Positions 4,891-54,832 of a stretch of DNA of 57,808 nucleotides are shown here, piece by piece. Positions within the stretch are counted from its first letter, which is position 1. Every line of letters starts with the position of its first letter. This DNA is from a virus, in IMG/VR virus record IMGVR_UViG_3300044695_002920, positions 1 through 57,808 of that record; one strand, given 5' to 3'. The position numbers were made by a program, and so were the translations under genes. Below the pieces are notes generated by a model. The model was given only the letters and a program-made list of their open reading frames with translations. It ran no database searches and was not told the origin of the DNA.

Positions 4891-4895
4891 TCTCT

Positions 4896-5549: not shown

Positions 5550-5573
5550 GGTGGCACCCTTCTAACACATTTT

Positions 5574-5752: not shown

Positions 5753-5762
5753 GCTAACCTCC

Positions 5763-6853: not shown

Positions 6854-7137
6854 TACTTGTCCTCTTCTTCTTCTTCCTTCGGCGCGGGCTTGCCATTCAT
6901 AGGCCCGCTGCCCTGCCCCGCCATCAATCCTGCCAATGCGCCGACTATGAATGTAGCAATCGGGTTAATCAGCTTAAAAAACTCTGCGTCATTAGGTGCC
7001 TGTCCATCCATCGGCTGCGACACGAAAATCAGCGAATACAGCACTGTCGCGACAATGAACATGAGCGTGATCGAGAGGACCACACCCACGATAAACCTCA
7101 ACAATTCCTCCGGCGTCCACTCATCTACTGGCTTCAT
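6853..7137 (-). CDS. Two-TM holin-like protein (94 aa)
   Basis: There are two hydrophobic segments, about residues 13-40 and 60-75 with a small-residue run (IVGALAGLMAG), and a highly charged tail ending in EEEEEDK. Size, charged tail and position two genes upstream of the endolysin fit a class II holin. The ATG overlaps into the preceding lipoprotein gene by 17 bases, suggesting coupled translation. It and the next gene may have arisen from a common two-TM ancestor (both have N-P-x6-IxGAxxGLxxG), a weak observation. Confidence 0.6.
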   Translation of the reverse strand: MKPVDEWTPEELLRFIVGVVLSITLMFIVATVLYSLIFVSQPMDGQAPNDAEFFKLINPIATFIVGALAGLMAGQGSGPMNGKPAPKEEEEEDK

Positions 7138-7312
7138 CTGTAGTCTCGTCGGTCGTAACCAGATACTCGGTGCAGTACCCAGACGCTATACACTTAGGCT
7201 TCTGGCACTCCGGCACTTCCCAGTTATCTGGATCTTGGCAATCATAGCGGAAGCGATCCTCGCACCCCATGAGGAGCACGGACGCCCCGATGAGGATTGC
7301 GACGCGCATCAT
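7121..7312 (-). CDS. Small outer-membrane lipoprotein, o-spanin candidate
   Basis: The N-terminus MMRVAILIGASVLLMGC is a textbook lipoprotein signal with the lipobox cysteine at residue 17. The mature part is about 47 residues and has four further cysteines (C25, C36, C41, C47), unusual for such a small protein and perhaps disulphide-bonded. The start overlaps the stop of the coiled-coil membrane protein gene, the arrangement seen for i-spanin/o-spanin pairs. The cysteine-rich rather than proline-rich mature part is atypical, so the spanin assignment is tentative. Confidence 0.6.
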   Translation of the reverse strand: MMRVAILIGASVLLMGCEDRFRYDCQDPDNWEVPECQKPKCIASGYCTEYLVTTDETTDEASR

Positions 7313-7596
7313 TCCCGGTCTTCCTTCTGCTCTAGGCGCTTGAATATCACGCCCAACGTGGTGTCGACCTTGTCGAAGCCCGCCTTCATGTCGGTGCGCA
7401 GCTCCTTCATTGTCTCGCGTATCTCGCGCACAGCCTCACGAAAGTCGTCCTTGCGGACGTAGACCTCGGGTAGGTCGCGCTCAATCTGCTTGACGTCTTG
7501 TTTGAGATCCGTGACCGCATCCCACACAACCTTCAGGATCCAGCCCACGGCCGCCCCGAAACCTGCAAATAACCAATTGAGCACGTCCTGCGTCAC
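7309..7596 (-). CDS. Membrane-anchored coiled-coil protein, i-spanin candidate
   Basis: The 95-residue protein starts at a GTG that overlaps the TGA of the preceding gene (GTGA). Residues 7-26 form one membrane segment and residues 30-90 form a strongly charged amphipathic coiled coil (REAVREIRETMKELRTDM). That is the topology of an inner-membrane spanin subunit. Together with the overlapping lipoprotein gene it would bridge inner and outer membranes in the last step of lysis. It could instead be a coiled-coil virion or holin-associated protein. Confidence 0.6.
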   Translation of the reverse strand: MTQDVLNWLFAGFGAAVGWILKVVWDAVTDLKQDVKQIERDLPEVYVRKDDFREAVREIRETMKELRTDMKAGFDKVDTTLGVIFKRLEQKEDRE

Positions 7597-39374: not shown

Positions 39375-40055
39375 ATGCTAAAGCAGGTAACACTTGCTGA
39401 AGCAAAGGATTGGTTCGCCCAGTACCACTACACCGGTACTGCGGCGGGCCATCGTTTCTACGCGTGGCTTCGAGACGACAAGATCGACGGCGTCGTTGCC
39501 CTTGGGCGCGGAGGCAACCGTTTTGGGGTGGCCGATAAGTTCGGCCTCACCGCATGGGCTGGCGGTCTTGAGATAACGCGCGTGGCTTGCCATCCAGACG
39601 GGCCGAAGAACACCGCCTCGAAGATGGTCGCCGCTGCCCTGCGCGAGCTTGCGGCGGGCGGCGATCAGTGGGTCTTCACTTACGCGGATACCGCCCACGG
39701 CCACCACGGGGGCATCTATCAGGCTCTCAACGCCGTGTATGTCGGCACCGACGCCAAGCAGTGGGTGAACTTCGAGCTGGATGGCCTGCGCGTTTCCAAG
39801 CGGGCAATCAGCGGGAAGTTCGGGCACACGCGCTGGCCTGAAGTTCGCGATCTTGCGGCGGATGCCGGTCATGTCTTGCGCAAAGTCGCGTGGCAGCCGA
39901 AACACACATATGTGCTGCCAATTGCTAGTGACCGCAAAGCGCGCCGCGCGATACAGGCCGCACTCGAACCACGGGCGCTTCCGTATCCAAAGCCGGGCCA
40001 GCCTGTTGCGCCTACGCCGTATCGCAATCATCGACCGAAAGACGACAACCAATGA
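39375..40055 (+). CDS. Mom-like DNA-modification acyltransferase (226 aa)
   Basis: The GNAT-type protein has WFAQYHYTGTAAGHRFYAWL, then DGVVALGRGGN, LEITRVACHPDGPKNTASKM and FTYADTAHGHHGGIYQALNA. The YHYSG-type start, the EITR strand and the S-x-AD-x-x-x-GHxGxIYQA segment match the Mu Mom family, which modifies adenine in DNA and blocks host restriction. No partner regulator (Com) is seen beside it. Either modification or a related acetylation is possible. Confidence 0.8.
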   Translation: MLKQVTLAEAKDWFAQYHYTGTAAGHRFYAWLRDDKIDGVVALGRGGNRFGVADKFGLTAWAGGLEITRVACHPDGPKNTASKMVAAALRELAAGGDQWVFTYADTAHGHHGGIYQALNAVYVGTDAKQWVNFELDGLRVSKRAISGKFGHTRWPEVRDLAADAGHVLRKVAWQPKHTYVLPIASDRKARRAIQAALEPRALPYPKPGQPVAPTPYRNHRPKDDNQ

Positions 40056-41413
40056 AGTTCACCCCGCACGACTACCAGCGCGAGGCCATGGACCACATCT
40101 ACAGGACGCCACGCTGCGCCCTGTGGATGCCCATGGGCGGCGGTAAGACGGTGACCACCCTCACGGCGCTAGACACCCTCGACTTCGTAGAGGACGTCTT
40201 CCCGGTGCTGGTGCTGGCACCGCTGCGCGTCGCGCGGTCGACATGGCCTGACGAGGTGGCGAAGTGGCAGCACCTCGCGCACCTGCGCGTCAGTGTCATC
40301 ACCGGCAGCGCCAAGGAGCGGGCTGCGGCCCTGCGTAACGTCGCAGACATATACACGATGAACTACGACAACCTCGTCTGGCTGCGCGAGACGCTGGGCG
40401 ACGAGTGGCCGTTCAAGACGGTGGTCGCGGACGAGTTCACGCGCCTCAAGTCCTTCAGGCTGCGTCAGGGAGGCTCCAGAGCCGCTGCGCTGGGTAAGGT
40501 GGCCCACACGCGCGTCAGCCGCTTCATCGGCCTCACAGGCACGCCTGCGCCCAACGGCGTGAAGGATCTGTGGGGGCAGACGTGGTTCCTCGATCAGGGG
40601 GCACGCCTCGGGCGCACCTTCAGCGCCTTCGAGCAGCGCTGGTTCCGCAAGGGCTATGACGGCTACAGCCTCGTGCCATACGCGCATACACAGCGTGAGG
40701 TCGAAGAGGCGCTGAAGGACATCTGCCTCACCGTGCAAGCCCTATCCGTCGACGAGCCCAACACGCTGCCGATCTACATCGACCTGCCGAAGAAGGCGCG
40801 CAAGGCGTATGACGCCATGGAGGAGGAGATGTACGCCATGCTCGCCGAGGGTGAGATCGAGGCGGCCAACGCGGCGGTGCGCACGCAGAAGTGCTTGCAG
40901 CTCGCCAACGGCGCGGCGTACACGGATGACGAGGGGTCGTGGGAGGAAGTGCATGACGCAAAGCTCGACGCGCTGGAGAGCATCATCGAGGAGGCTAACG
41001 GAGCGCCTGTGCTTGTGGCGTATAACTTCAAGCACGATCTCGCGCGACTACAGGCTCGTTTCCGTAAAGGTCGGGTGTTGGACGCTGACCCTGATACGAT
41101 CAGGCAGTGGAACGCCGGTCGGATCCAGCTACTATTCGCTCACCCTGCGTCGGCAGGGCACGGCCTCAACCTCGCCGACGGCGGGAACATCCTCGCCTTC
41201 TTCGGTGTGAACTGGAACCTCGAAGAGCATATGCAGATCATCGAGCGTATCGGGCCGATGCGCCAGAAGCAGGCGGGCTATGACCGGCCGGTCATGGTCT
41301 ATCCGATCCTCGCCCGCGACACGATCGACGACGTCGTCATGGACCGGCTGGGCGGCAAGAAGAGCGTACAGGAGGCGTTGTTGGACGCCATGAAATCAAG
41401 GAGACAGAAATGA
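40052..41413 (+). CDS. SNF2-like DNA helicase (453 aa)
   Basis: Superfamily 2 helicase: motif I MGGGKT (Lys32), motif Ia LAPLRVARSTW, motif II ADEFTR (Asp127-Glu128), motif III GLTGTPAPNG, and a C-terminal motif V/VI region HPASAGHGLNLADG and QIIERIGPMRQKQ. The two RecA-like domains are complete. The family is common in phage replication modules and probably remodels DNA or displaces proteins. The start overlaps the Mom-like gene stop (ATGA). Confidence 0.9.
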   Translation: MKFTPHDYQREAMDHIYRTPRCALWMPMGGGKTVTTLTALDTLDFVEDVFPVLVLAPLRVARSTWPDEVAKWQHLAHLRVSVITGSAKERAAALRNVADIYTMNYDNLVWLRETLGDEWPFKTVVADEFTRLKSFRLRQGGSRAAALGKVAHTRVSRFIGLTGTPAPNGVKDLWGQTWFLDQGARLGRTFSAFEQRWFRKGYDGYSLVPYAHTQREVEEALKDICLTVQALSVDEPNTLPIYIDLPKKARKAYDAMEEEMYAMLAEGEIEAANAAVRTQKCLQLANGAAYTDDEGSWEEVHDAKLDALESIIEEANGAPVLVAYNFKHDLARLQARFRKGRVLDADPDTIRQWNAGRIQLLFAHPASAGHGLNLADGGNILAFFGVNWNLEEHMQIIERIGPMRQKQAGYDRPVMVYPILARDTIDDVVMDRLGGKKSVQEALLDAMKSRRQK

Positions 41414-41628
41414 CAAGACTACTGACGCTTATGGACCCCGAAGAGTGCCCAGACACGGATATGTACCGCGAGCTGTTGTGGTTCGAAACCGTATGCCGGA
41501 TCAAGCATATCAGACACACAACGGAAGAAGAGGTGCGTTCGTTTCTGCGTAACGAGCGGGGCCGCCCCGACCTAGCCGACGCGTTCTCTACTTCTTATCT
41601 TTTTCCAGAAGACTTTCAAGAAACCTGA
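41410..41628 (+). CDS. Last rightward gene (72 aa)
   Basis: MTRLLTLMDPEECPDTDMYR, helical and acidic, starting at an ATGA overlap with the helicase gene. Its last 41 bases overlap the end of the first leftward ejection-type gene on the other strand, with no terminator between. Unknown function. Confidence 0.6.
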   Translation: MTRLLTLMDPEECPDTDMYRELLWFETVCRIKHIRHTTEEEVRSFLRNERGRPDLADAFSTSYLFPEDFQET

Positions 41629-43015
41629 GTGTCTTGTAGTCAAGGACGCCACCTTGCGGCTTCAGTTGCATGGCACGCAAAGGTGACTTTGTGCCGGGCT
41701 GAACGCCTACGGGGAAGTCAAACGGGGTTTCGTATTTAAGAGCCGCCATGACGTCAGGGGATAGACCGAGAGCGCCAATGTTTTCTTTCAACCGCCCCAC
41801 CCCACGACCGGGGATCGAGTAGTTGTAGGACGCGTGGGACGAAGGCGATGCGCCGAACCTTGGGTCGATAATACCGACATTGCGGAGCGTTGTCAGCGGA
41901 GTGTTCATCTGATCGAGGTCGGTCGCAGCGTATATTGCTTCCCCTTCCCCAAGACCCCCGCGATTGCGGTATTTGTCCATCAATGAGTTCAAAGCGCCGC
42001 GCGCCTTTCCGGTGACGGTCATGAACATTTCAGCGCTGTCGGGGTCTTCAAACCCACGCCAGTTTGGCAAGATTTCCTTGATGCCAGCGGCTAGTGCTTT
42101 GCGATCCGCGCCACCCATCGCCGCGTCGGCGTAGCTGTACTGGATGCCACGCGGCATGTGCGAGAACTTTACCGCCTTCGGCCCCATCGTCCACGGCATG
42201 TACAGGACGTCTTTGCCTGTCATCTGCTGTAGCTGATCCGCAAGCTCTACGTGCCGTTCAGCAGGGCCGCGCTCGGACGCCCAGACAGAGCCGGGGTTGT
42301 CGAACATATAGTCTTGGCCGCCACGGCGACTGAACGGGACGCGGAACATTACATCGTTGATCGCGGTGATGTCGTCACCCGCCGCCGCAAGGTCAGACAT
42401 GGACGTGATGTACGGGTAGCCTTCGTAATCAAAGATGCTGACCTCTGGTGCGGGATCGGTAATGCGCGGGGCTAGATCTACCTTAAGGTTAGCGATCTTG
42501 CCCAGTTCGCCTTTACGGTTTTCGATGCGTGGGTCTGTCGCCACGTCGGCGGGGCGCACTGAGTAGGGGCTAGGCGCTTTGGTGTTTACGTTTGGCGTGT
42601 CAGATCCCGACAGGCGTTGCGCAGCCACGCGCCACTCTGCCAGCGGTGCGTCTGCTGGGATCATGCCTTCGAGCCTGCGAGCGATATCGGAGCCGAACTC
42701 AAGCGCGACTTCGTGGATGGGGTTTGCAATACCCTTAACGATAGGTTTTGCTTTGGGCTTGGGAGCCTTCTTTACGGCCTTTTTCTCTGCGGCATCAGGC
42801 TTCGCAGCCAACGGCTTCGCAGCAGGCGGTTTCGCAGCCAACGGCTTCTGCTTCGGTGCTTTCTTCCTCGGCACCGTTAGCGAGGGTAAGTCTAGAACGT
42901 CGCGCAGTGGCTTCTCGATAATGTCGGGAATGTAGTCCGAGCCGCTTCTGACGGCGCTTCTTAGGCCACTCTCAATAATCCGAGTTGGGCTTGGTTTGCG
43001 GGATCTGCCTGACAC
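41588..43015 (-). CDS. Tagged internal virion/cargo protein 1 (475 aa)
   Basis: GTG start preceded by CGGAGGTAACACC. Residues 1-52 (KPSPTRIIESGLRSAVRSGS, DYIPDIIEKPLRDVL) are nearly the same as in the next upstream gene. Residues 50-95 are a lysine-, proline- and alanine-rich linker with AAKP repeats. Residues 110-475 form a large unknown domain with FDYEGYPYITSMSDLAA, YMFDNPGSVWASERGP and DVLYMPWTMGPKAVKF. It shares no obvious sequence with its partner outside the tag. Placement with ejection-type proteins suggests it is packaged and injected with the DNA. Confidence 0.75.
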   Translation of the reverse strand: MSGRSRKPSPTRIIESGLRSAVRSGSDYIPDIIEKPLRDVLDLPSLTVPRKKAPKQKPLAAKPPAAKPLAAKPDAAEKKAVKKAPKPKAKPIVKGIANPIHEVALEFGSDIARRLEGMIPADAPLAEWRVAAQRLSGSDTPNVNTKAPSPYSVRPADVATDPRIENRKGELGKIANLKVDLAPRITDPAPEVSIFDYEGYPYITSMSDLAAAGDDITAINDVMFRVPFSRRGGQDYMFDNPGSVWASERGPAERHVELADQLQQMTGKDVLYMPWTMGPKAVKFSHMPRGIQYSYADAAMGGADRKALAAGIKEILPNWRGFEDPDSAEMFMTVTGKARGALNSLMDKYRNRGGLGEGEAIYAATDLDQMNTPLTTLRNVGIIDPRFGASPSSHASYNYSIPGRGVGRLKENIGALGLSPDVMAALKYETPFDFPVGVQPGTKSPLRAMQLKPQGGVLDYKTLRFLESLLEKDKK

Positions 43016-44272
43016 GGTGTTACCTCCGGTTTCTGTCTACACGCCCGCCAATAGCGAAGCCCTTCATTGCTTTCACCACATCAGAGTGCGTAGTGACTTC
43101 GTCCCCAGCTTTATCCCAAATGGCGTGATGCGCGAGATGTTGATAGTAGGGCCGTAGCTCTTCTGGCAAAGCAAAGTCGAGAGCCTCTTGTCTGGCGGAA
43201 AGCCGCTCCACCCCTTCAACACCTCCGAGACCGCCACGACGGGCGATGTATTTTGAGGCCTCTTTTGTCGGGCGGCCGGTGTTCAGGATTATCTGGCGGG
43301 CATCAAGGGTTGGTTGGTCACCTCGGCCAAGAAGAGAAGCTAAGAAACCGGATTTACTAGGGCCAATACCTTTGACATCCTTCGTAAACACCCTCCAATC
43401 TGAGGGGGTGCTTGCCATCTCGCGACCTGCCGCAACGAGATCCGACACTTGGGATTGTTGGCCGGGGAGGTTCAGCGCAGCCCATTCGAGGGCGTTGCGC
43501 AGATCGTTCTGTTTCCCAAATGGCTTCATCTGCGCGACGGCGTCTCCGATAGCGTTATCAGACAGCCGCCCGTATTGTGCGGCATCAAGATACGCCTGAC
43601 CTGCAGGTGTCCCGAGCCACTCACCAAATGCGCCTTCTGGCCGCACCTTGCCTGTGACATCAACAGGGAGATCAAGACCTGCGCGGCGTAGGTTCTCTGC
43701 GTCTGTAGCCTGCCGCTGGATGCTTGCGCGGGTGATAGTAAACGCTTTGATAAGATCGCGCGGTGTTAATCCTTGCCCTGCAGCGCGGGCTGCCTGTTCT
43801 TCCATGAAACGACCAAAGTCGATCACATGTGGCGGGATTTCAGACATACCGCCCAGTTTCTCGTAAACTTCCGGCAGGCCAGCCCAATTCCACTCGGGGT
43901 TAACCGCCGCCACAGGGTCTACGTACTCCGCGACGGTGCGAGGGGGCGGCATAACCTGAGCAATCTGCTTTTCTTTTACCGCAGGACTGGAGGGTTTAGT
44001 TGTTGCTGGCAACGCCTTTACGACGGGTTTCTTGCGAGTGACGTTTGTCTCAGGCGCTGGGGTTGGCGTGGTCTTCGCGGCCAACGACTTTTGCTTAGTG
44101 GCAGCCTTCCTCGGCACCGCCAGATCAGGCATGCTCAGAACGTCACGCAGTGGCTTCTCGATGACATCGGGAATGTAATCCGAACCGCTTCTGATGGCGC
44201 TTCTCAAACCGCTCTCGATGATGCGAGTTGGGCTTGGTTTGCGGGGTCTGCTTGACACGGTGTTACCTCCGC
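42860..44272 (-). repeat. Duplicated tag cassette (translation start plus 52 codons)
   Basis: Minus-strand DNA from about 43030 down to 42860 repeats that from about 44272 to 44110. The copies share CGGAGGTAACACCGTG, which serves as end of the upstream gene, Shine-Dalgarno and start. They share most bases of the 52 tag codons, then diverge. Many differences are in third positions, so the duplication is not recent and the tag is under protein-level selection. Confidence 0.85.
43020..44258 (-). CDS. Tagged internal virion/cargo protein 2 (412 aa)
   Basis: GTG start with the same CGGAGGTAACACC. It carries the 52-residue tag (PTRIIESGLRSAIRSGSDYI, PDVIEKPLRDVL), a basic Pro/Ala/Thr/Lys linker, and an unrelated C-terminal domain from about residue 110. 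That domain contains TKDVKGIGPSKSGFLASLLG and QPTLDARQIILNTGRP, which could be a helix-hairpin-helix DNA-glycosylase-like segment, a weak call. It ends FAIGGRVDRNRR. The common tag with different C-termini suggests delivery of distinct proteins by one route. Confidence 0.75.
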   Translation of the reverse strand: MSSRPRKPSPTRIIESGLRSAIRSGSDYIPDVIEKPLRDVLSMPDLAVPRKAATKQKSLAAKTTPTPAPETNVTRKKPVVKALPATTKPSSPAVKEKQIAQVMPPPRTVAEYVDPVAAVNPEWNWAGLPEVYEKLGGMSEIPPHVIDFGRFMEEQAARAAGQGLTPRDLIKAFTITRASIQRQATDAENLRRAGLDLPVDVTGKVRPEGAFGEWLGTPAGQAYLDAAQYGRLSDNAIGDAVAQMKPFGKQNDLRNALEWAALNLPGQQSQVSDLVAAGREMASTPSDWRVFTKDVKGIGPSKSGFLASLLGRGDQPTLDARQIILNTGRPTKEASKYIARRGGLGGVEGVERLSARQEALDFALPEELRPYYQHLAHHAIWDKAGDEVTTHSDVVKAMKGFAIGGRVDRNRR

Positions 44273-47200
44273 ATTTGCTTCACTGCGTAGCGGACAGGCC
44301 GCGCCGCAAAATTTATAGCCGCCTGACCGCGTCGCGTGTTCGCAAGCCTCTTGCCAGCCGCACCTGCACCCATCAGGATGGCAAAGTCTGCGGCGTTGCG
44401 CGGAGCATCTGCACGAATGGCCGACATCCGGTCGGATCCGGCCACCTTCGGATCGGGTTTAGCCTGCCCTGCCGAATACAATGCGCCCTGACCGAGAGCG
44501 TCGACAGCCCCCGCACCGAGGCGAGCGAGGCGACCAGCATTGCCCACTACCCGTGCGCCAGCGAGCGACGGGGCCAGAAGCGAGCCACCCAGCATGCCAG
44601 CACCCTCAAGCACCATGGCGGTGTTCGGGTTGGCCTTAGCATAGCGCTCCTGCAGCATGCGCAGGCGGGTTACCTCGTTTTCGTATGCGTTCGGATCCCT
44701 AGACGCGAGCGAGCGCAGCTTGGCCTCGATCTCGTCACCGAAACCGAAGGTCAGGCCCTGCCCCACTGTGCGGGCTGCGTTCGCGTAGTCATAGCCGCGG
44801 CGGGGCCGTCCGCCCTTCTTGAGCTGCTGCACGGAGCCGCCACGGGCCAGCTCCACGACGTTGCCTGCCTGATCCACGCGGGTGCCGTCAGGCAGCACAT
44901 ACGTGTCCGTATCGGCGTCGTACGCGCCTTCTGTGCCGAGGTCGATAGAGCCGCCCTGCGGCGCTGGGCTATTGACCGGCACCATATCCTCAAGCGGCAC
45001 ACCGTCTCCGCGTGTCAGCTCGACAACTGGGCTGCCGGGCATGCTGGCCTGCGGCGTGCGGTATATCTGCGGCAACTCTTGCGGGGCTGCGACTTCTTCC
45101 TGCCCCTGCGCGGCTTGAAGGCCCTGCGCACCAGCCATAAGGCTCTGGATGGTCATCCGGTTGTCACCGTACTTGGTGTTCAGGTAGTCAAAGGCGTCGG
45201 CGATCGGCTGGCCGCGCTGCGCCATGTTGGAAAACGCAGCGCCGATCGTCCTGTCGACCGCGCCCATGCCTTGCCCAGCTTTGTAAGCGGCCTCGCCCAT
45301 CAGGCGCGGAGACGTCAACGGCAGAGTTACCAGCGACGCGCCCGAGGTTGGGATGGCTGCCATCAAGCTACCGCCAGCACTTATCTGGCCAAGGCCGCGC
45401 GGTGTTTTTGCCGATAGCTGCTGCCCCGCCAGAGCGGGGAACAGCTCAGTCGCGCCTGCTGCTTCTAGCTCGCGGCCTAGCTCTACGCGTCGGCCATAGT
45501 TGGTGTTGGCATTGTTGCGCAGCATGGACTGCAGCTTGCGGAGCGAGGTATCGACCTGCGCGCCCGGCTTGAGCGAGAGCGTGCCTTCGATGTCGCGAAG
45601 TTTCTCCATGCCAAACTCGTAGTCCGCCATCACCTTGGCGTAGGCGGGCACCTGATCGTTGATGACCTTCTTGACCTCGCCATACACCCCCGACGCAATC
45701 GACGACGCGCGGCGGTTGTTCTCAGTCGCAAAGGCATTCGACAGCTCACCCAGACGCTGCTTCAGAGCGTCCATGCCTTCCGGCGTATGGAACTGATCAG
45801 GGGTGTCACCGTACCAATCGTCGACAATCGCCTTGGCTTTCTCGTACACGGCCGCCGCAGACGGGTTTACAACTTTGTTGCCCCTGAAAGCCCGGTCACG
45901 CAGCTTATCTAGGCGGTCGTAAATAGGCTGGAAGTCTAGGATGGTTTTGTCTTTTTTGACGTCTACCATGCCCGAACGGTAAGCCTCAGATGCCTGTGAG
46001 CGAATGTTCCCCACCGCCTCTTTGGCTTGCGTGAGGACAGTATCCAGATCTGCGCCGCCGCGCATGTTTTCGAGGAAGGTCTTAGCCCCTTCGCCCCCCA
46101 TGCGCCCAGCCTTAGCGGCCTCCTTCAGGGCGTCCGCTCCCGCGCCAGTGGTGAGCCCGACAGCCTGCGCCGATCCCTCTTGGATGGCCTTACCGGTGAG
46201 CGCCAACGCCTTAAACGGCGCGGAGGCAACGCGGGCAGTCAAACGGACGGGATCCAGCGTCTCGCTCAGTTTGGTGGCCTTTGCGATGTTACCCGCCTTA
46301 CCGAGGGCACCAGCGACTACAGTCGCGTCAGAAAGCACCTCAAAGGGGCGCTCTGCTAGGGCTGTCAGGAAACCGTTCTCCGTGCCGTACTGCGTGGCGT
46401 AGTGGTTGCCAAGGGCGGCGAGTGTCTCGCCGTCAGTGATGCCGAGGGCGTCGCCAGCCAGCTTGCCGATGCTGGTCACCGTCTCAGGCAGGTCTACGGT
46501 GAGGGCCTTGCCCGTTTCCGCAAAACTTTTGACGGCACTCATGGGCAGGTTAGCGACACCGGAGAGGGCCGCTTCCGGCCACGTAAGACCGCCGCGCGCA
46601 GCCTCGTCAATCTGCTCGTAGCTGAAACCGCCCCACTGCAGGCCCTTTTCCATGTTCTGGACAGTCTCGCGGCCCTTCGCAAGCGCGTCAGCCTTGAACG
46701 CATCATCGGGCTGGACACCGGACTGCACCGCACCAGCCGTTACGAGGTCTGCATACGCCTGCGGCGTAAGCTCTCCGCTTTGGTAAAGCGCGCGTATGCG
46801 GCCCGCAGTCTCTTCAGGCAGACGGTAGCCTTGGGTCTTGGTGGGGTCTATCCTCTGCAGCAGATCCGCCTCGACCTCATTGATGCCGCGCGGTTTCATA
46901 CCCAACTTGAGCAGTTCCGACGGCGAGGTGCCCCCGGCCATGCCAGAAATGAGCAAGTCGAGCATGGCGTACTTGGTTTCGATCGTCCTATCACTGTCGC
47001 CCGCTTGCGGGATGTAGGACATGAAGACCGCCATTTCCTTGTCGCTGTCGCCTTCTTTTGCGGACTGCGCGACGAGTGGTCGGATGAGCGACAGCATGGT
47101 GTCATTGGCTTTTGTAAAGCTCTCGAATGCCGGTATGGCGGGAACGACGCCGCCGAGTGTCGGTTTGTCGAAATACTCGGCGTAACCAAAAAGGCGAGAG

Positions 47201-47544
47201 GCGGGCTGCCCTTTGATGTCCCGCTTATACAGGCCGATGTTATTCAACATCTGCGCGCGCACGACGGCGGCGCGCTGCTCTATCCCGCTCCTCTTCGCCT
47301 CTAGAGCAATTTCCGTAGCGGTCTGCTTGGGGCCCTCTTGGGCGTCCTTTTCAGCTTTAGCGGCGTCGGCGATAGCTTTACGCGCGTCGGCTTCCGCCTT
47401 AGTGATCTGGGCCTTAACCGTCGCCTCACTCACGGCAGCGCCTGCCTGACCCCTGCGGATGTCGACCTCGCGTTTTGTTGCCTCCTGCGTAGCAGGGCCA
47501 CTCCACGTTGCGCCGGAAAGATCAATCTTTTCGGGTCCAGCCAT
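44263..47544 (-). CDS. Large internal virion (ejection) protein (1093 aa)
   Basis: The start at 47544 overlaps the previous stop (TGATG); a GTG one codon earlier is also open. Long helical regions and several hydrophobic glycine/alanine segments are present. Around residue 900 it has VELARGGSVQQLKKGG, and the last 190 residues contain GQGLTFGFGDEIEAKLRSLA, AGMLGGSLLAPSLAGARVV and a terminal basic helix. Size, helix content and place between ejection-type genes suggest a podovirus inner-core protein that enters the host with DNA. Its final codons double as the Shine-Dalgarno of the next gene. Confidence 0.7.
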   Translation of the reverse strand: MAGPEKIDLSGATWSGPATQEATKREVDIRRGQAGAAVSEATVKAQITKAEADARKAIADAAKAEKDAQEGPKQTATEIALEAKRSGIEQRAAVVRAQMLNNIGLYKRDIKGQPASRLFGYAEYFDKPTLGGVVPAIPAFESFTKANDTMLSLIRPLVAQSAKEGDSDKEMAVFMSYIPQAGDSDRTIETKYAMLDLLISGMAGGTSPSELLKLGMKPRGINEVEADLLQRIDPTKTQGYRLPEETAGRIRALYQSGELTPQAYADLVTAGAVQSGVQPDDAFKADALAKGRETVQNMEKGLQWGGFSYEQIDEAARGGLTWPEAALSGVANLPMSAVKSFAETGKALTVDLPETVTSIGKLAGDALGITDGETLAALGNHYATQYGTENGFLTALAERPFEVLSDATVVAGALGKAGNIAKATKLSETLDPVRLTARVASAPFKALALTGKAIQEGSAQAVGLTTGAGADALKEAAKAGRMGGEGAKTFLENMRGGADLDTVLTQAKEAVGNIRSQASEAYRSGMVDVKKDKTILDFQPIYDRLDKLRDRAFRGNKVVNPSAAAVYEKAKAIVDDWYGDTPDQFHTPEGMDALKQRLGELSNAFATENNRRASSIASGVYGEVKKVINDQVPAYAKVMADYEFGMEKLRDIEGTLSLKPGAQVDTSLRKLQSMLRNNANTNYGRRVELGRELEAAGATELFPALAGQQLSAKTPRGLGQISAGGSLMAAIPTSGASLVTLPLTSPRLMGEAAYKAGQGMGAVDRTIGAAFSNMAQRGQPIADAFDYLNTKYGDNRMTIQSLMAGAQGLQAAQGQEEVAAPQELPQIYRTPQASMPGSPVVELTRGDGVPLEDMVPVNSPAPQGGSIDLGTEGAYDADTDTYVLPDGTRVDQAGNVVELARGGSVQQLKKGGRPRRGYDYANAARTVGQGLTFGFGDEIEAKLRSLASRDPNAYENEVTRLRMLQERYAKANPNTAMVLEGAGMLGGSLLAPSLAGARVVGNAGRLARLGAGAVDALGQGALYSAGQAKPDPKVAGSDRMSAIRADAPRNAADFAILMGAGAAGKRLANTRRGQAAINFAARPVRYAVKQMRR

Positions 47545-48233
47545 CACATCGCTCCTTTGCTAGGGACAGTTCCAATTTTCATGCCGGTAGCAGGATCGTA
47601 CACATCTTGCGAGCCGTCTGGATTGGTGAAACGCAAACTCCCGTCTGTATACTGCCTCAAGGTAATACCCGACTTCGTGGTGACAGTCTGGCGTGTTGGT
47701 TTTGGTTCGTCGGGAGACACGTAGGACATCATGTTTTCCGACCAGTTCTGCGTAGGTTTCTTCAGCAACGACCCAGCAGTCCTCACGAGGTCTGCAGCCG
47801 TCCGAGCGTTCTGCGTGCCGAGGCCCGCGCGCCGCATGCCGTAGGCCTCGTCGAATTTCGCGAGCTGCTCCTCGCGCGATAAGGCCGCCTTGCGCTGTGC
47901 CTCGCTGATGTCGCCGAAGGCACCGCTGATCTTGCCGATCGTGCCCGCGATGCCGCGATGCTCCCTCGGGGCCAGCAGCGCCTTAGACAGGGCGAACAGT
48001 TGCTCGGACGTAGACGGCCCTTGGTTGCGCGCAATGATATTGGCGCGGCCCTTCTCGTAAAACTCCGCGAGGGTCTTCTTCTCTGCCTCTTGCGCCGCCA
48101 TCTGCTGGTTGAGCACGGCCTGCAGAACAGACGCGGGATCGTCGCGCAGTTTGCCGAAGTCGATGCCGCCCATGGCACCAAGAGCGCCCAGCTTGCCGGT
48201 GTCGACGGGTACTTCTTCTTCTTCCTCGTACAT
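47544..48233 (-). CDS. Internal virion protein (229 aa)
   Basis: The start MYEEEEEVPVDTGKLGALGA is preferred because GGGGATC lies upstream; a start 21 codons earlier overlaps the previous gene. The centre is helical (LQAVLNQQMAAQEAEKKTLA), and the C-terminal end (GITLRQYTDGSLRFTNPDGS) is a short beta repeat. It is grouped with ejection-type proteins. Confidence 0.65.
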   Translation of the reverse strand: MYEEEEEVPVDTGKLGALGAMGGIDFGKLRDDPASVLQAVLNQQMAAQEAEKKTLAEFYEKGRANIIARNQGPSTSEQLFALSKALLAPREHRGIAGTIGKISGAFGDISEAQRKAALSREEQLAKFDEAYGMRRAGLGTQNARTAADLVRTAGSLLKKPTQNWSENMMSYVSPDEPKPTRQTVTTKSGITLRQYTDGSLRFTNPDGSQDVYDPATGMKIGTVPSKGAM

Positions 48234-48234
48234 G

Positions 48235-50292
48235 TCAGATCCCCAATAGCTTGCTGAGAGCGGATCCAGCCTGCGCGCTTGATAGTATGCCGCCAAGACC
48301 AGTCAGCGCGCCGCCGATAGTCTCTGCGGTGCTCGGTCTCAGTTGCGGCTGGTAGCCCATAGGCACGATCCCCTCGTCGCGGCTGGCCACCGGTACGCCC
48401 GATTTGACGCCGCCGAAGGTCTGCAGCATCGCGTTGATCTGCTCCTGCGGGTAGCCCTGCTGGCGGAGGAAGTCGGCGTAGGCGACGTCGAGGTTCTTCT
48501 GCGCCTGCTCTTGCTGGATGCCGCCGACTTGGCCAAGCGCGCCTGCGCCAGTGAGGCCGAGGCGCTGGGCGTCCGCGCCAAGAGTGGCGAGCTGCTGTGC
48601 TCCGGCGAGGTTGCGAGTGAGATCCTGACCAGCGAAGCCACCGGCAGTCTGGCCCATCTGCGAGAGCAGACGCTGCTGCTCCTGCGTGATGCCAGCACCG
48701 GAAGCGCCGAGGGCCGCCAACTGCTGCGCGGCGCTGAGCGCGCCCTGCTGACCCGTACCGGCCAGCGTGCCGAAGCGGCCACCGATGTCGACCAGAGCCT
48801 GCTGCTGCTGCGCCATGAGGTTGCCGCCGATCTGGCCCAGCGCACCCGTCTGCTGCCCCGCCTGCGCGAGGGCACGCTGCTGCTCGGTGCCGAGCTGCCC
48901 AGCCTGCGCGCCGATGTTGGTGAGGGCCTGCTGCTGCTGCGTCGTGAGGCCGCCAAGCTGGTTGGCGATCGCGGCCTGCTGGTTGGCAGCCTCGAGCAGC
49001 GCCTGCTGCTGCTGGCCGCCCAGTACGCCGCGCTGCGTGCCGATGCTGGTGAGAGCCTGCTGTTGCTGCCCTGTAAGCTGGCCGAGCTGCGTGCCCACGG
49101 CGGCCTGCTGCTGCGCGGCCTCGAGCAGGGCCTGCTGTTGCTGCGAGCCGAGTTGGCCTGCAGTCCCAGCGAGCTGAGCCTGCCGCGCGAGGTCGGCTGC
49201 AGCCGCAGCCTGCGCCTCGCCATAGCCTCGGCTGAGTAGCTCACCCTGCTGCCTAACTGTTGCCTCCTGAACGTCGCGCAGGGCGCGAGCCGTGTCGGTC
49301 ATCATGCCCGAGGGCGTGCCGGATCCCGGCTGACGGCCACCAGCGCCGAGCTGGCCTGCGGCGATGTAGCGGCCCTCAATATCGGGCAATAGGTTCTCGC
49401 GCAGGTTGCGAGCGCCCAGCTCACCGACCTGCCTGACGACCTGCTCGGTGTAGGGGTTCATGTACTGGCTGATGTTGGCGACGCTCGTCTGGCCTGCCTG
49501 CCCGAGGTACGGTGCGGCAGCCGCGAGGCCGCCAGCGGCAGTGCCCTGCTGGATCGTGCCGAGGGCCTGCTGGTAGGCGGGCGAGGCGGCGCTGACACTG
49601 CTCAGGCGCTCGGCGGCGGAGAGCGTGGGCTCCGCGGACTGCATGCCCAGAGCCTGCGTGCCCTGCGCGGCGGTGCCCAGCGCCTGCTGGAAGCCCGGCA
49701 GGGCGGCGCTGACACCTGAGAGCTGGGCCGCTGAGCCGAGGTAGGGCTGCGCCGCCTGCTGGCCGAGAGCCTGCGTGCTCTGTTGCGCGAACTGCTCGGC
49801 CTGACTGAGGTAGGGGTGCGCGAGGTCGAAGCCGGACATGCCCGCAGCCTGCTGCAGATAGGGCTGCGCGGCTCCTACGACGTTGGTCTGTCCGGCCTGC
49901 GTCGTGAGGTTGCGCGCCGCGTCGTAGTCGCTGGCGGCGACGCCCATGGGGTTAAGCTGCTGGGCCTGAGTGAAGTAGGGCTGGGCGGCTGCCAGAGAGC
50001 CCGGAGCGCCCAAGGCACCCTGCGTCGCCTGCGTGGCAGCCGTGAGGGCAGGCTGATAGGCTCCGGCCGCCTGACCAGTCTGCGCGAAGGCCTGCTGCTG
50101 CGTGGGCGAGAACTCAGCGACGCGCGGACCCTGATAGGTCTGCAGCGGCTGCGCAGCCAACGCCTGCTGGTTGGAGAGCAACTGCATGGCGTAGTTGGTG
50201 TACCACTCAGGCAACACGCTCTCGCTGATCTTCGACGTGTATGTCGAGCCAGCGGGCAGCTCCCCGTTGTTGAGAAAATCACTGAGTGCCAT
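48235..50292 (-). CDS. Glutamine/alanine-rich internal virion protein (685 aa)
   Basis: After an N-terminal segment (SVLPEWYTNYAMQLLSNQQA) the protein is built of Ala/Gln/Gly-rich helices with repeated QPYLxQAxQ motifs. From about residue 375 it has a run of QQQQALxxIGxQxGxLG repeats. The C-terminus (YADFLRQQGYPQEQINAMLQ) is a conserved-type ending of podovirus internal proteins. The ATG shares bases with the stop of the upstream gene (TAATG). Likely an inner-core or ejection channel protein. Confidence 0.75.
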   Translation of the reverse strand: MALSDFLNNGELPAGSTYTSKISESVLPEWYTNYAMQLLSNQQALAAQPLQTYQGPRVAEFSPTQQQAFAQTGQAAGAYQPALTAATQATQGALGAPGSLAAAQPYFTQAQQLNPMGVAASDYDAARNLTTQAGQTNVVGAAQPYLQQAAGMSGFDLAHPYLSQAEQFAQQSTQALGQQAAQPYLGSAAQLSGVSAALPGFQQALGTAAQGTQALGMQSAEPTLSAAERLSSVSAASPAYQQALGTIQQGTAAGGLAAAAPYLGQAGQTSVANISQYMNPYTEQVVRQVGELGARNLRENLLPDIEGRYIAAGQLGAGGRQPGSGTPSGMMTDTARALRDVQEATVRQQGELLSRGYGEAQAAAAADLARQAQLAGTAGQLGSQQQQALLEAAQQQAAVGTQLGQLTGQQQQALTSIGTQRGVLGGQQQQALLEAANQQAAIANQLGGLTTQQQQALTNIGAQAGQLGTEQQRALAQAGQQTGALGQIGGNLMAQQQQALVDIGGRFGTLAGTGQQGALSAAQQLAALGASGAGITQEQQRLLSQMGQTAGGFAGQDLTRNLAGAQQLATLGADAQRLGLTGAGALGQVGGIQQEQAQKNLDVAYADFLRQQGYPQEQINAMLQTFGGVKSGVPVASRDEGIVPMGYQPQLRPSTAETIGGALTGLGGILSSAQAGSALSKLLGI
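48600..49170 (-). repeat. QQQQAL helical repeats
   Basis: About eight degenerate repeats with QQQQAL, spaced roughly 25-28 residues apart, make the internal virion protein strongly biased in Gln, Ala and Gly. Heptad-like spacing supports a long coiled coil or helical tube. Confidence 0.7.
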
Positions 50293-53200
50293 TACAAACG
50301 TCCTCCGGCCATATAGTGCTCAGGCCTCTTCGCATTTTCACTGAACTCACCGCGAGCGAGCTTGCGGCCCTTCTGTTTCCTTACGTTCACGCGGAACTTG
50401 TCAAGCATCTGCGCGCCCGCCTTGTTCGAACCGTTGCCCAGAAGCGCAACTGTTTCGGCGTCTATAACATATTCGCCGTCAGAAAGCAGCGCCGGTATTT
50501 TATCGTCGCGACCGTCTCCAGCCCCCTCGACGGCAAAGCCGCCTCGGGCGTAGCCGGTGTAGGCTTTGCTGGTGTTGCGCGCGCCCTGCGGCACGTAATT
50601 GAAGAAGCTCTGCTCCGGCCCGTAGCCATAGCGGTAATAGTCGATCGGCGCGCTAAGGCCCCGAGCCGCAAGGTCGCTGGGCGAGCGTGCGCCGCTTCCA
50701 CCTCCGCCGACACCGAGGCCGGGCAGGTTGGCTGGCGGGAGCTTCGCGCCAAAGATCGGGTTGAGCCTGCCCATGGTGCCCGGCACGTTGAACTTCTGGC
50801 TGCCGCCACCACCGCTGCCAGCGAGGCCGCCCAGTAGGCTGCTCAGCAAGCCCGCGATGCGCAGATAGTCGGCGATGTCTTTGAGGGTCGTGTCCTTCTT
50901 GGCTTCGGGCTGCGTCGCGCCATCGCGAGCGCCGGTGAAGCCCAAATCAGTGCGCGACGTAACCATGGGCGGCGTCACAGGTATGGACGTCGGTTGCTCA
51001 GGTACAGTCGTCTTATTGCCAATTACATTTATGCCCTCCTCGTAAGTGACAGGAGGCAGGCCGCCCGATGTTATAGGCAGCGTAACTGGGACAGATGGCG
51101 GCAGCGGCGGCGCATTGTTGCCCGTAACGACGATCTGGTCAGGATCTGTCGGCTGTTGAGCCGCATCGAGTGGCTGCGGTATCGGTACGGGCTGCGGCGA
51201 CGGCGCGAATATCGATGGCAGCGGAACAGACGGCATCACCTCACCACCTGTGACGACGATATCCCTGTTTTCGGGTGCCGCCTCGGGTTGCGCGGGTTGC
51301 TGAACCACACCGGCATCGAGCGGCTGCGGTATCGGTATGGGTTCCGGCGACGGTGTGAATATCGGCGCAGGGATGGGTATGCTCGGCGTCACATTGCCGC
51401 CCGACACAACGATCTCGCTCTCTTCAGGAGCTGCGGGTTGCTGCGGCGCGCCCGCATCGAGCGGCTGCGGTATCGGTATAGGTTCCGGTGACGGTGTGAA
51501 TATCGGCGCGAGGTTGACGCTTGGTGCTGCATTGCCGCCCGACACGACGATCTCGCCCCCGAGGGTATCTGCTTTAGCGTCGCCAGCCACATTCGAGCCG
51601 CTGCCAGCGCTAATCGGCGTGCTCGGACTTACGCCGCCGGTAGTGGTTATGGTGTTGGTCGCCGCATCATAGACACCTGATCCCCCCGGCAGTGTGATGC
51701 CTAACTCCTCGGCCACGCCCGGTATGACGTACGATGCCGCACCAGAGGCCAAGCCGCCGAGCAGTGAGTTCTTTAGGTTCTGGCCCGTCGCAAGACCGCC
51801 AGCAGTCGCGCCGAGACCTGTGCCGACCGCGCTGGCGGCCTTTGTTGCGCCCAGAGCAGGGCCCAGTATAGTGCCGCCTGCCGTCGTGAGGCCGCCCATG
51901 ACAGCGCCCTTAAGCGGGTCGCCGCCAGATAGCGCATTACCTGCTGCGCCTGCCGCAGCCGCCGCTGCGATCTGGGCAGGGACGCTCAGACCGCCGGTCA
52001 GGACCGCTGTGGCGATGGGAAGCGCGAAGCCTGCAATCTTACCGAACACACCGAGGTCGCTGCCCTTCGGGTCATCGTCGGCGATGCGCGACCACTGGCC
52101 GTCCTGATCCGAGCGCTCAAGATACCAGTCAGCCTTGGTGCCACCCTCGGCCGACAGGCGCTGCGCTGCGGCATAGGCGTCGCGGAGGCCCTGTTCGCCC
52201 ACGCCGCTGGTGAGAATGGCATTCTGGCCCCGCTCGTTGACGAGGCGGTAGGTGGCGTTGGGGTCGAGGCTTACGAAGGCGGTGGGGTTGGCTTTCGTCT
52301 TCGCGGGCTTACCGGCGTTGGTGACGAAATAGTAACCCTGCTGTCCGTCGTTCGTGACGAAGTCCAAGCCCGGCGTCGCGCTGGGCTTGCTGTACTGTAT
52401 CACGGTCTCCGGCGTCGGGCGCACCGTCGGTCGCGGGCCTGTGATGGCGTAATCCTCTGGCCCCATCAGGGGGTCAGTCATGTCGCCTACCGGCGCGTTG
52501 TAGTCGGCAGGAACGACGGCGTTCGGCATGCCTATCTGCTCGCTGTACACAGGCTCTACAGCGTAGGGTGCGCCTACCTGCTCAGCCGGTGCGCTGGGCA
52601 CTGGCTCCATGCTTACAGGCGCGCCGACTTGCTCACCGGGCATTGGGTAATTCACCAGAGCGGAGTAGTCAGGCGCGACGTAATCAGACACGCCGTAATC
52701 CAGTGGCGCTGGCTCTACGGCGTAGGGCGAGCCTGTCTGCTCGGCCGGTGCGCTGGGCGCTGGTTCTACGGCGTAGGGCGAGCCTGCCTGCTCAGTATAG
52801 GCTGGTTCGACGTAGGGGTTGTAGGCAGGCTCCACGCCGCTGGGCGCTTGCTCGCTGTACACCGGCTCCGAAGCATAAGGCGAGCCTACAGGCTCGTTAT
52901 ACACCGACGGCATGGATACCGAAGGCGTCGCGACGTAATCAGACGCGCCGTAGTCCAGCAGCGAGGGGTACTCGACTGGTGGCGTGTACGCGGGCTCCGA
53001 GTACTGCGGAGGCGTGTAGATGGGCTCGTTATAGACAGGCGGCGCATACTCGACTGGCGGCGTGTAAGCGGGCTCCGAGTACTGCGGGGCCGGTTCGTTG
53101 TAGACAGGCTCGTAGTACTCCACCGGAGACGTATACTCGGTCGGAGGTGTGTAGGCGGGCGGAGTGTACTCGACGGGCGGCGTGTAGGCGGGTTCGCTGT

Positions 53201-54599
53201 ACACGGGCGGCGTGTATACCGGCTCAGGCGCTGTGTAGACAGGCTCCGAGTACTGCGGCGGCATCGCGTAGTCGACCGGCGGGGTGTACTCAACCGGCGG
53301 CGTGTATACCGGCTCGTTGTACACGGGCTCGTTGTACACGGGCTCGTTGTACACGGGCGGAGTGTATACCGGCTCGTTGTACACGGGCGGGGTGTATACC
53401 GGCTCAGGTGCTGTGTAGACAGGCTCCACGTACTCAACAGGAGACGTGTATTCGACCGGCGGCGTGTATTCGACCGGCGGCGTGTAGACGGGCTCCGCGT
53501 AGGTGGGCGGAGTGTACTCGACGGGCGGAGTATAAACAGGCTCGTTGTACACGGGCGGAGTGTAGACAGGCTCAGGCGCTGTGTACACCGGCTCGTTGTA
53601 CACAGGCTCGTTGTACACGGGCTCGTTATACACCGGCTCGTTATACACGGGCGGCGTGTACTCAACCGGAGGTGTGTAAACAGGCTCGTTATACACGGGC
53701 GGAGTGTACTCGACTGGCGGCGTGTACTCGACTGGCGGCGTGTAAGCAGGCTCGGGCGCTGTGTAGACAGGCTCGTTGTATACCGGAGGCGTATACTCGA
53801 CTGGGGGAGTGTATACCGGCTCGCTGTAGGTAGGTGCCGTGTATACCGGCTCAGGCGCTGTGTATACCGGCTCAGGCGCTGTGTAGACAGGCTCGTTGTA
53901 TACTGGCGGCGTGTACTCGACAGGAGGCGTGTAGACAGGCTCGGCGCTGACAGGCGCGCTGGTCTGTGCAGGCTCGCCGTACATCGACTGGAGGTACTGC
54001 AGGTAGGCGAGCATCGACGCGTAATCGAATGCCACAGGTGTTGGCATTTCAGGTGGCGAGCTTACCGGCGGTGGGGGCGGAGGTGGTGTGTACGCGGGCT
54101 CCGGTGCTGTATAGACAGGCTCGTTATACACGGGCGGAGTGTAGACAGGCTCGTTGTACACGGGCGGCGTGTAGACAGGCTCGTTGTATGCAGGCGGATT
54201 GTATACCGGCTCGTTGTACACGGGTGGGGTGTAGACAGGCTCGGGCGCTGTGTAGACAGGCTCGTTGTATACCGGAGGCGTGTACACGGGCGGGGTGTAT
54301 ACCGGCTCGTTGTACATCGGCGGCGGAGGTGCGGAGTAGATAGGCTCGTTGTACACGGGCGGGGTGTATACCGGCTCGTTGTATACCGGAGGCGCGTATA
54401 CCGGCTCTGAGTACATCGGCGGATTGTAGACAGGCTCCGAGTACATCGGCGGGCTGTAGACAGGCTCGTTGTAGATCGGCGGGCTGTAGACAGGCTCGTT
54501 GTAGATCGGCGGCGTGTAGTTCCACATGCCGTAGTCAGCCATACCGTAGTCAGGCGAATACATGAAGTCTGATAAGCCGGGGATATAGTATTCGTCCAT
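50292..54599 (-). CDS. Giant Pro/Tyr-repeat virion protein (1435 aa)
   Basis: The start at 54599 overlaps the previous stop (TGATG). Residues about 30-580 are a tract of EPVY, TPPVY, TAPEP and TPPVEY units. A structured segment follows, with TPGLDFVTNDGQQGYYFV near residue 745. Next are a Gly/Ala-rich hydrophobic region (VMGGLTTAGGTILGPALGAT) that may cross a membrane, and four 45-residue repeats with PEPIPIPQPLDAG and IVVSGGN. The C-terminal part has AGDGRDDKIPALLSDGEYVI and VALLGNGSNKAGAQMLD, a module known from podovirus internal virion proteins. An ejection role is inferred. Confidence 0.75.
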   Translation of the reverse strand: MDEYYIPGLSDFMYSPDYGMADYGMWNYTPPIYNEPVYSPPIYNEPVYSPPMYSEPVYNPPMYSEPVYAPPVYNEPVYTPPVYNEPIYSAPPPPMYNEPVYTPPVYTPPVYNEPVYTAPEPVYTPPVYNEPVYNPPAYNEPVYTPPVYNEPVYTPPVYNEPVYTAPEPAYTPPPPPPPVSSPPEMPTPVAFDYASMLAYLQYLQSMYGEPAQTSAPVSAEPVYTPPVEYTPPVYNEPVYTAPEPVYTAPEPVYTAPTYSEPVYTPPVEYTPPVYNEPVYTAPEPAYTPPVEYTPPVEYTPPVYNEPVYTPPVEYTPPVYNEPVYNEPVYNEPVYNEPVYTAPEPVYTPPVYNEPVYTPPVEYTPPTYAEPVYTPPVEYTPPVEYTSPVEYVEPVYTAPEPVYTPPVYNEPVYTPPVYNEPVYNEPVYNEPVYTPPVEYTPPVDYAMPPQYSEPVYTAPEPVYTPPVYSEPAYTPPVEYTPPAYTPPTEYTSPVEYYEPVYNEPAPQYSEPAYTPPVEYAPPVYNEPIYTPPQYSEPAYTPPVEYPSLLDYGASDYVATPSVSMPSVYNEPVGSPYASEPVYSEQAPSGVEPAYNPYVEPAYTEQAGSPYAVEPAPSAPAEQTGSPYAVEPAPLDYGVSDYVAPDYSALVNYPMPGEQVGAPVSMEPVPSAPAEQVGAPYAVEPVYSEQIGMPNAVVPADYNAPVGDMTDPLMGPEDYAITGPRPTVRPTPETVIQYSKPSATPGLDFVTNDGQQGYYFVTNAGKPAKTKANPTAFVSLDPNATYRLVNERGQNAILTSGVGEQGLRDAYAAAQRLSAEGGTKADWYLERSDQDGQWSRIADDDPKGSDLGVFGKIAGFALPIATAVLTGGLSVPAQIAAAAAAGAAGNALSGGDPLKGAVMGGLTTAGGTILGPALGATKAASAVGTGLGATAGGLATGQNLKNSLLGGLASGAASYVIPGVAEELGITLPGGSGVYDAATNTITTTGGVSPSTPISAGSGSNVAGDAKADTLGGEIVVSGGNAAPSVNLAPIFTPSPEPIPIPQPLDAGAPQQPAAPEESEIVVSGGNVTPSIPIPAPIFTPSPEPIPIPQPLDAGVVQQPAQPEAAPENRDIVVTGGEVMPSVPLPSIFAPSPQPVPIPQPLDAAQQPTDPDQIVVTGNNAPPLPPSVPVTLPITSGGLPPVTYEEGINVIGNKTTVPEQPTSIPVTPPMVTSRTDLGFTGARDGATQPEAKKDTTLKDIADYLRIAGLLSSLLGGLAGSGGGGSQKFNVPGTMGRLNPIFGAKLPPANLPGLGVGGGGSGARSPSDLAARGLSAPIDYYRYGYGPEQSFFNYVPQGARNTSKAYTGYARGGFAVEGAGDGRDDKIPALLSDGEYVIDAETVALLGNGSNKAGAQMLDKFRVNVRKQKGRKLARGEFSENAKRPEHYMAGGRL
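51090..51570 (-). repeat. Four IVVSGGN / PIPQPLDAG repeats
   Basis: Repeats of about 45 residues, each with an APIFTPSPEPIPIPQPLDAG segment and an IVVSGGN or IVVTGGE segment. The two inner copies are close in DNA sequence and the outer ones more diverged. Confidence 0.8.
52960..54520 (-). repeat. EPVY/TPPV repeat tract
   Basis: I count about 43 EP(V/I/A) units, most followed by Y, in about 510 residues. They are arranged as NEPVYTPPVY (30-bp DNA unit), EPVYTAP (21 bp) and PVEYTPP (21 bp). Neighbouring copies keep very similar DNA, so unequal recombination or slippage probably changes copy number. A 45-residue non-repeat island (FDYASMLAYLQYLQSMYGEP) interrupts it near 54 kb. Confidence 0.9.
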
Positions 54600-54832
54600 C
54601 AACCTGTACTTTCGAGCATCGGATAAGCGCGCATTGCCCATTCGCGCCAGTCCGAGAACTGGTAAGGATCAGGAAGGGTGCGCTGCGTAAAAGGAGACGC
54701 GCGTACAAGCCCCGTTGCCCAATCGCGCCACGCAGCTTCTTCGGGAGGCCTCCCGAATGACCACGCATCGCCTACGACCAGTATAACCGAAGAAGCCCAG
54801 TCTTGCCAAGACATTCCGAGGGGATTTATCAT
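54599..54832 (-). CDS. Small tryptophan-rich protein (77 aa)
   Basis: MINPLGMSWQDWASSVILVV, later EEAAWRDWATGLVRA and DPYQFSDWREWAMRAYPML. Three W-x-x-W-A patterns suggest a repeated amphipathic helix. It overlaps the nozzle gene stop and the repeat-protein start. The family is familiar from podovirus tail operons but unnamed to me. Confidence 0.7.
   Translation of the reverse strand: MINPLGMSWQDWASSVILVVGDAWSFGRPPEEAAWRDWATGLVRASPFTQRTLPDPYQFSDWREWAMRAYPMLESTG

Follow-up and report, generated by a model that had tools for sequence, protein, structure and literature searches.

A modular N-terminal leader on unrelated phage proteins as a candidate signal for loading cargo into the virion

Two adjacent genes, A and B, of an uncultured virus (IMG/VR record IMGVR_UViG_3300044695_002920; positions 1 to 57,808, all 57,808 nucleotides (nt) of which are referred to as the window) encode proteins that share an N-terminal tag and continue into unrelated cargo domains. 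We found by computation that this tag is modular, stands at the N-terminus, recurs on unrelated cargos, is under purifying selection and co-varies with the product of the neighbouring gene C. Judging from these sequence patterns, we consider it probable that the shared N-terminus represents a modular, lineage-specific leader which loads proteins into the virion for ejection together with the DNA. Virion packaging, docking on C, injection and the activities of the cargos are what we infer from the patterns.

Genes A and B and their common N-terminus

Both genes lie where the initial annotation had placed two adjacent tagged genes, and both start with GTG. The region is organised as follows:

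41588..43015, minus strand: gene A (475 residues, GTG start), tag plus basic Lys/Pro/Ala linker plus cargo A, a phage-only domain
42866..43015, minus strand: tag of A, codons 1-50, with helices predicted for residues 10-24 and 31-41
42725..42865, minus strand: linker of A, low-complexity, basic and predicted disordered, about residues 51-97
41591..42724, minus strand: cargo A, about residues 98-475
43016..43028, minus strand: start cassette CGGAGGTAACACC preceding A; CGG AGG TAA doubles as Arg-Arg-stop of B
43020..44258, minus strand: gene B (412 residues, GTG start), tag plus basic linker plus cargo B, predicted HhH DNA-glycosylase-like fold
44109..44258, minus strand: tag of B, codons 1-50, with helices predicted for residues 10-25 and 31-40
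43932..44108, minus strand: linker of B, low-complexity and mostly predicted disordered, about residues 51-109
43059..43931, minus strand: cargo B, about residues 110-400, with Lys302 and Asp319 invariant in 14 aligned homologues
44259..44271, minus strand: start cassette CGGAGGTAACACC preceding B; CGG AGG TAA doubles as Arg-Arg-stop of C

BLASTP aligned residues 1-62 of the two proteins with 51 of 62 positions identical (82%, E = 5e-28) and found no further alignment beyond them (next best E = 0.23). The predicted folds of the C-terminal domains differ as well, in agreement with their earlier description as unrelated. The tag had been assigned 52 residues; the sharing is borne out, and the length comes closer to 60 residues once the first part of the basic linker is included. 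In structure models the tag consists of two helices (residues 10-25 and 31-41) followed by a disordered linker, with moderate confidence in B and low confidence in A. It is a separate element in these models and the same cargos occur without it, which argues against the tag being part of an enzyme domain.

At the DNA level, 150 of the first 195 nt of A and B are identical, upstream sequence counted in. Identical copies of the 13-nt sequence CGGAGGTAACACC stand ahead of both GTG codons, as expected from the proposal of an identical translation cassette, and its core GGAGGTAACA has no further occurrence anywhere in the window. The cassette also overlaps the upstream gene: each GTG lies 4 nt past the preceding stop codon, of C or of B, and CGGAGGTAACACC is at once a Shine-Dalgarno sequence and the Arg-Arg-stop of the upstream protein. 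The cassette DNA differs in other lineages, for instance TCAAGGAAGTAAGC, which gives recurring Ser-Arg-Lys C-termini, and the identical cassette is thus a feature of the lineage. Tags A and B are separated by 0.60 synonymous (dS) and 0.10 nonsynonymous (dN) substitutions per site. The resulting dN/dS of 0.17 indicates that the tags are under purifying selection on the peptide.

Recurrence of the tag and co-variation with gene C

Viral contigs were scanned using as queries A, B and a degenerate DNA pattern for DYIPDxxExPLR, which yielded about 60 loci, duplicates included (loci are designated by L numbers). A tag profile was run over the 10,231 open reading frames (ORFs) of these loci and detected 28-29 non-redundant proteins in 18 contigs, the window included, with every match at the N-terminus. 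A later search with a different query brought in L074 as the 19th contig and, with L075, one more tagged gene for the L061 contig. Tagged genes form an adjacent pair in 12 of the 19 contigs, counting the window. Among the window proteins the profile matched A and B only and, as the tag recurs N-terminally in 18 other viral contigs, its sharing by A and B is not due to chance. We attribute to chance a weak internal match (E 0.05) in a protein of L064.

Behind the tag stand members of about seven mutually unrelated cargo families: PcfJ (PF14284), cargo A together with distantly related sequences, cargo B, ART-PolyVal (PF18760) either alone or with a ParB-like domain (weak ParB match), DUF7178 (PF23802) types, the L048 family and L056 gene 2. 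Several of these are recognised polyvalent-protein domains. The tag is therefore not confined to paralogues of one protein, and such natural fusions are consistent with a tag that packages foreign proteins. The related sequences, which are few, represent about three tag lineages. The exact tag pattern had 0 matches in 84,980 species genomes, tblastn of the tag against 50,697 phage records gave chance-level matches only (E 1 or worse), and homology to a described phage packaging tag was not found in Pfam, PHROG or NCBIfam.

The neighbourhood of the tagged genes contains the following features:

44263..47547, minus strand: gene C, putative ejection-type internal protein of 1094 residues; the homologous protein of Caulobacter phage KcrB has an SLT transglycosylase domain at its end
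44338..44811, minus strand: C-terminal module of C, which co-varies with the tag and is a candidate docking partner
47544..54641, minus strand: genes D, E and F (250, 685 and 1449 residues) upstream of C, in an order kept in relatives; the C-terminus of F is tape-measure-like
40052..41413, plus strand: convergent helicase gene, the other boundary of the cargo slot, 73-94% identical in full-length matches of relatives

C is probably an ejection-type protein, as its KcrB homologue ends in an SLT domain (PF01464, E 2e-17), which fits the ejection-region setting proposed at the outset; C of the window has no Pfam match and aligns to the part before that domain. KcrB has the same gene order, and by the portal protein (60% identity) the nearest isolates infect Caulobacter. 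A profile built from the C-terminal 180 residues of C placed the module at the C-terminus of C in 16 of the 16 tagged phages that have this end. In phages with other leaders the module occupies another part of C or a small ORF of its own (L007), or is not detectable, and tblastn of the module in annotated phages gave no match.

Similarity of the tags followed similarity of the module (Mantel rho 0.72, p 2e-4, 16 phages). To tell co-variation from simple linkage, we also considered only tags in second position, a whole cargo gene away from C, and these tracked the module too (rho 0.80, p 0.002, 10 phages), whereas the second-position cargos did not track their own tags (rho 0.20, p 0.17). Mantel tests leave some shared ancestry in. 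The idea that the tag follows the general phage backbone was rejected in that form, as tag and helicase identity were uncorrelated (rho about 0.03-0.14). Nor does the tag simply follow the rest of C: window and L044 are alike in module (92%) and tag (81%) and dissimilar in the core of C, while window and L048 are alike in the core and not in the tag. With module and tag in common, window and L044 carry different cargos. A search with the module only, blind to the tag, retrieved three further phages (L074, L076 and L080), and in L074 two genes proved to bear DYIPD-type tags, both overlooked by the DNA pattern.

All tagged cargos are located in a slot between C and the convergent helicase gene. 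This slot holds 1-4 genes per phage of the group, and the genes of one phage have a common leader, of the DYIPD type or not. Other leader types common to adjacent genes were seen in L002 (three genes), L003/L004/L006/L009, L007, L030/L033, L039 (four genes) and L080; some of the non-DYIPD leaders are rich in Ala/Lys, and composition then raises the similarity values, which does not apply to L007 and L080, and E-values are unreliable for low-complexity leaders. Cargo A of the window is 92-95% identical to that of L030/L031 despite differences in leader: L031 has the ARTPVRRLIEKG version of the tag, 30% identical to the window tag, and L030 the unrelated leader MGIASRFAAKAA. Cargo B follows MGVVSKLAVK in L003, MPSRKDFAVR in L002 and MAKPSSQRNLDYL in L007, and PcfJ and ParB-ART cargos are also found behind several leaders. 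The leaders are basic, with a mean of +8.3 charges in the first 70 residues of 28 leaders versus -3.1 for 23 other window genes (Mann-Whitney p 7e-8, a value that is indicative only because the leaders are related to each other).

Some further proteins of the slot were recorded. In L039, with its four-gene slot, two neighbouring PcfJ cargo genes (3709-5592 and 5487-7475) have leaders that are 90% identical over 84 residues. In L034/L035 (7329-9143), L037 (7047-9197) and L038 (5803-7983), cargo A lacks the short tag and is instead fused to a long leader that includes a hydrophobic stretch rich in Ala/Gly as well as a Lys/Ala linker; this may possibly reflect delivery via direct fusion to an ejection-type domain. 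The C-termini of many slot proteins (among them window B, L027 3950-5935 and L058 7194-8390) show recurring GFAxGGxV / ARGGLAVKPxKFAVK sequences followed by a basic end, and the last residues of slot proteins are partly set by the overlapping start cassette of the next gene.

A proposed loading route and its alternatives

If the shared N-terminus loads proteins into the virion, the leader would comprise two short basic helices (about 40 residues) and a disordered Lys/Ala/Pro linker. The accessory slot behind C would be filled in each phage with one to four 'first-strike' effectors, every one bearing the leader of its own phage lineage and being exchanged between phages. The docking site of the leader would be the C-terminal module of C or another component co-evolving with it. 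The cargos, in the window phage the DNA-glycosylase-like B and the phage-only domain A, would join the ejection-protein core in the head during assembly, exit the particle with the DNA and act early against the host. We put forward more tentatively, as a possibility that may well prove wrong, that leaders and C module are matched docking pairs, a lineage-specific lock-and-key that recruits arbitrary effectors to the ejection machine of short-tailed phages. If so, cargos would travel with the ejectosome by a route distinct from T4 scaffold-core targeting, and several leader types would have evolved independently in one phage group.

Several observations weigh against a loading leader. All tagged phages are uncultured contigs, and in the nearest isolates with this architecture, the Caulobacter phages, the slot is without cargo. 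L076 and L080 possess the module together with a different leader, NPxRRxLDPINDxLFRxLPDSIEPAARxFFG. The two L080 genes share this leader (46% over 94 residues, E 2e-23), while their cargos are unrelated. Module and DYIPD tag therefore do not always go together; what comes after the C-terminal module in these loci is cargos that bear a leader, which need not be the DYIPD one. The co-variation can arise in part from linkage, and the sample is small, with 10-16 phages from about three lineages. Cargos A and B also exist without such a leader in large polyvalent proteins near the portal gene, cargo B being embedded in proteins of 600-2000 residues, so that the leader is not universally needed. Finally, the leaders of L007 are weakly basic.

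The shared N-terminus might instead be mainly a recombination anchor for cargo swapping, composed of the Shine-Dalgarno cassette and about 60 codons and providing homology for exchange in the way of the conserved N-termini of polymorphic toxins, with a peptide that plays no part in packaging. The cassette is indeed conserved at the DNA level over the 150 of 195 nt and overlaps the upstream stop codon, and window and L044 have retained module, cassette and tag while the cargo was replaced. However, the changes between tags A and B are mostly synonymous, pointing to selection on the peptide, leaders of related phages differ in sequence while being similar in composition and occupying the same slot, and the cassette DNA varies between lineages. 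We therefore regard a mere anchor as unlikely, and a role in swapping would be compatible with one in packaging. We also think it improbable that the tag is an interaction or processing domain which acts after injection or in assembly, as a DNA or membrane anchor or as a propeptide removed by a protease, and is not a packaging address. Basic leaders and Lys-rich disordered linkers would suit contact with DNA, and the lysines of T4 internal proteins contact packaged DNA (PMC3012670), but co-variation with the C module points to a partner in the virion rather than to host or DNA, and generic DNA binding would need no lineage-matched sequence. That A and B are recent tandem duplicates with a diverged C-terminus, as their adjacency and 62 common residues might suggest, is refuted by their unrelated cargos, which have separate homologues elsewhere at 84-95% identity and differ in predicted fold, and the L044 tag (dS 0.32) lies nearer to tag A than tag B does.

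By analogy, a loading leader probably works like the capsid targeting sequence (CTS) of phage T4 and the signal of P1 DarB. The T4 CTS is much shorter than the tag described here and is removed by the prohead protease. It is a short N-terminal sequence common to unrelated injected proteins (the internal proteins IPI, IPII, IPIII and Alt), which form a diverse counter-defence set, and it is enough by itself for the packaging of foreign proteins (PMC3012670, PMC9391042); its target is the scaffolding core (PMC3012670). The likeness lies in a common N-terminal sequence on otherwise unrelated proteins. The tag differs in having about 40 residues plus a linker, in being lineage-specific and without sequence similarity to the CTS, and in sitting in a portal/GroES/ejection-gene architecture where it co-varies with an ejection protein. 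In P1, the N-terminal ~30 residues of DarB, a large counter-restriction protein of polyvalent type, suffice to bring a reporter into the head, and no consensus packaging sequence was found among the Dar proteins (PMC9024508). A and B resemble DarB in their putative N-terminal signal, which has no sequence similarity to that of DarB; unlike in the Dar proteins, several cargos of one phage have one leader here, and it recurs across phages.

Podoviruses eject internal core proteins, such as T7 gp14-gp16, P22 gp7/16/20 and N4 vRNAP, and gene C with its neighbours occupies the corresponding position. T7 gp16 has an SLT transglycosylase domain, as the KcrB homologue of C does. The tagged proteins differ from this conserved core in that they are accessory cargos of variable number (none in KcrB, 1-4 elsewhere).

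With N-terminal capsid-targeting tags known in T4 and P1 DarB and polyvalent injected effectors already described, an undescribed effector-delivery system, as suggested by the initial annotation, is too strong a term. What appears to be new is a long swappable leader on polyvalent-type cargos that co-varies with an ejection protein. To our knowledge, how the injected effectors of podoviruses are chosen for packaging is largely unknown outside T4 and P1. The natural series of leader-cargo swaps and the candidate partner make this question directly testable, injected effectors could be found through the leader alone, and a compact tag for carrying proteins in phage particles is suggested.

Cargos of the window and of related phages

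Searches of Pfam, PHROGs and NCBIfam with A, B and C gave nothing credible, and the earlier view that cargo A has no recognised family stands. Cargo A did not match solved structures, its model was of modest confidence (predicted local distance difference test, pLDDT, 68.5), and tblastn of A in 50,697 phage records gave no match. It is matched by 17 predicted viral proteins, including proteins of 1200-1500 residues named PcfJ-like, NAT_SF or 'structural protein'.

Cargo B is predicted to adopt an HhH DNA-glycosylase fold. The top structural matches of its model (pLDDT 77) are 8-oxoguanine glycosylases of the Ogg2 family (PDB 3knt, 3fhg; Foldseek probability 1.00), with a template modelling (TM) score of up to 0.70 by target length against 3knt. 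Two residues do not vary among the 14 homologues aligned, Lys302 within a GIGPSK motif and Asp319 within PTLDAR, and they resemble the catalytic Lys/Asp of the HhH superfamily. The predicted fold and the invariant pair may thus liken cargo B to these enzymes; it differs from them by a sequence identity of 10-14%, a Foldseek E of about 0.1 and the lack of a sequence-profile match. Cargos of the DUF7178 type (L044 7977-9491, L049, L056 768-2270, L074 6679-8124) contain a TIDTH-like motif that recalls the catalytic Asp region of HhH glycosylases, and DUF7178, to judge by the look of its sequence, may be glycosylase-like as well.

In phage ct7L0027 (MW202675), a single 909-residue ORF combines cargo B (55% identical), a cargo-A-like domain and the InPase polyvalent domain (PF18823). 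By this homology, A and B of the window are counterparts of parts of one polyvalent protein, here split and each provided with its own leader. The ORF (MW202675 45116-47812, L001) is publicly labelled 'type I restriction enzyme' and is actually a polyvalent protein of these three domains. Polyvalent proteins of phages and conjugative elements are predicted to be packaged and injected, according to Iyer et al. 2017 (PMC5512222). ART-PolyVal, the ParB-type nuclease and InPase, which is fused to B and the A-like domain in ct7L0027, belong to this class, and PcfJ (PF14284) and DUF7178 (PF23802) occur beside domains of this class in our loci. Window A and B have one cargo apiece rather than two or more disparate domains per polypeptide, and relatives of B are found in multidomain proteins of 900-2000 residues. 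Unlike in polyvalent proteins, the domains are split here into separate genes, each with a copy of the leader; solo versions of polyvalent domains are described in PMC5512222, whose passages on N-terminal and packaging terms contain no shared leader. Separate tagged genes would offer a possible route by which large polyvalent proteins are split or from which they are built.

Two observations concern other proteins. The N-terminal half of gene F (50292-54641) is a long Pro/Tyr repeat (YNEPVYTPPV...) that matches a plant extensin model just under the cut-off. Large fused polyvalent proteins of L001 (17935-20661), L010, L011, L013, L014, L018, L022 and L023 carry the short motif [IV][DR][RK]AL, as in VVDRALMLVSR and IERALAVTRR, at the N-terminus, at the C-terminus and at some domain borders, and this motif may be another packaging or processing signal.

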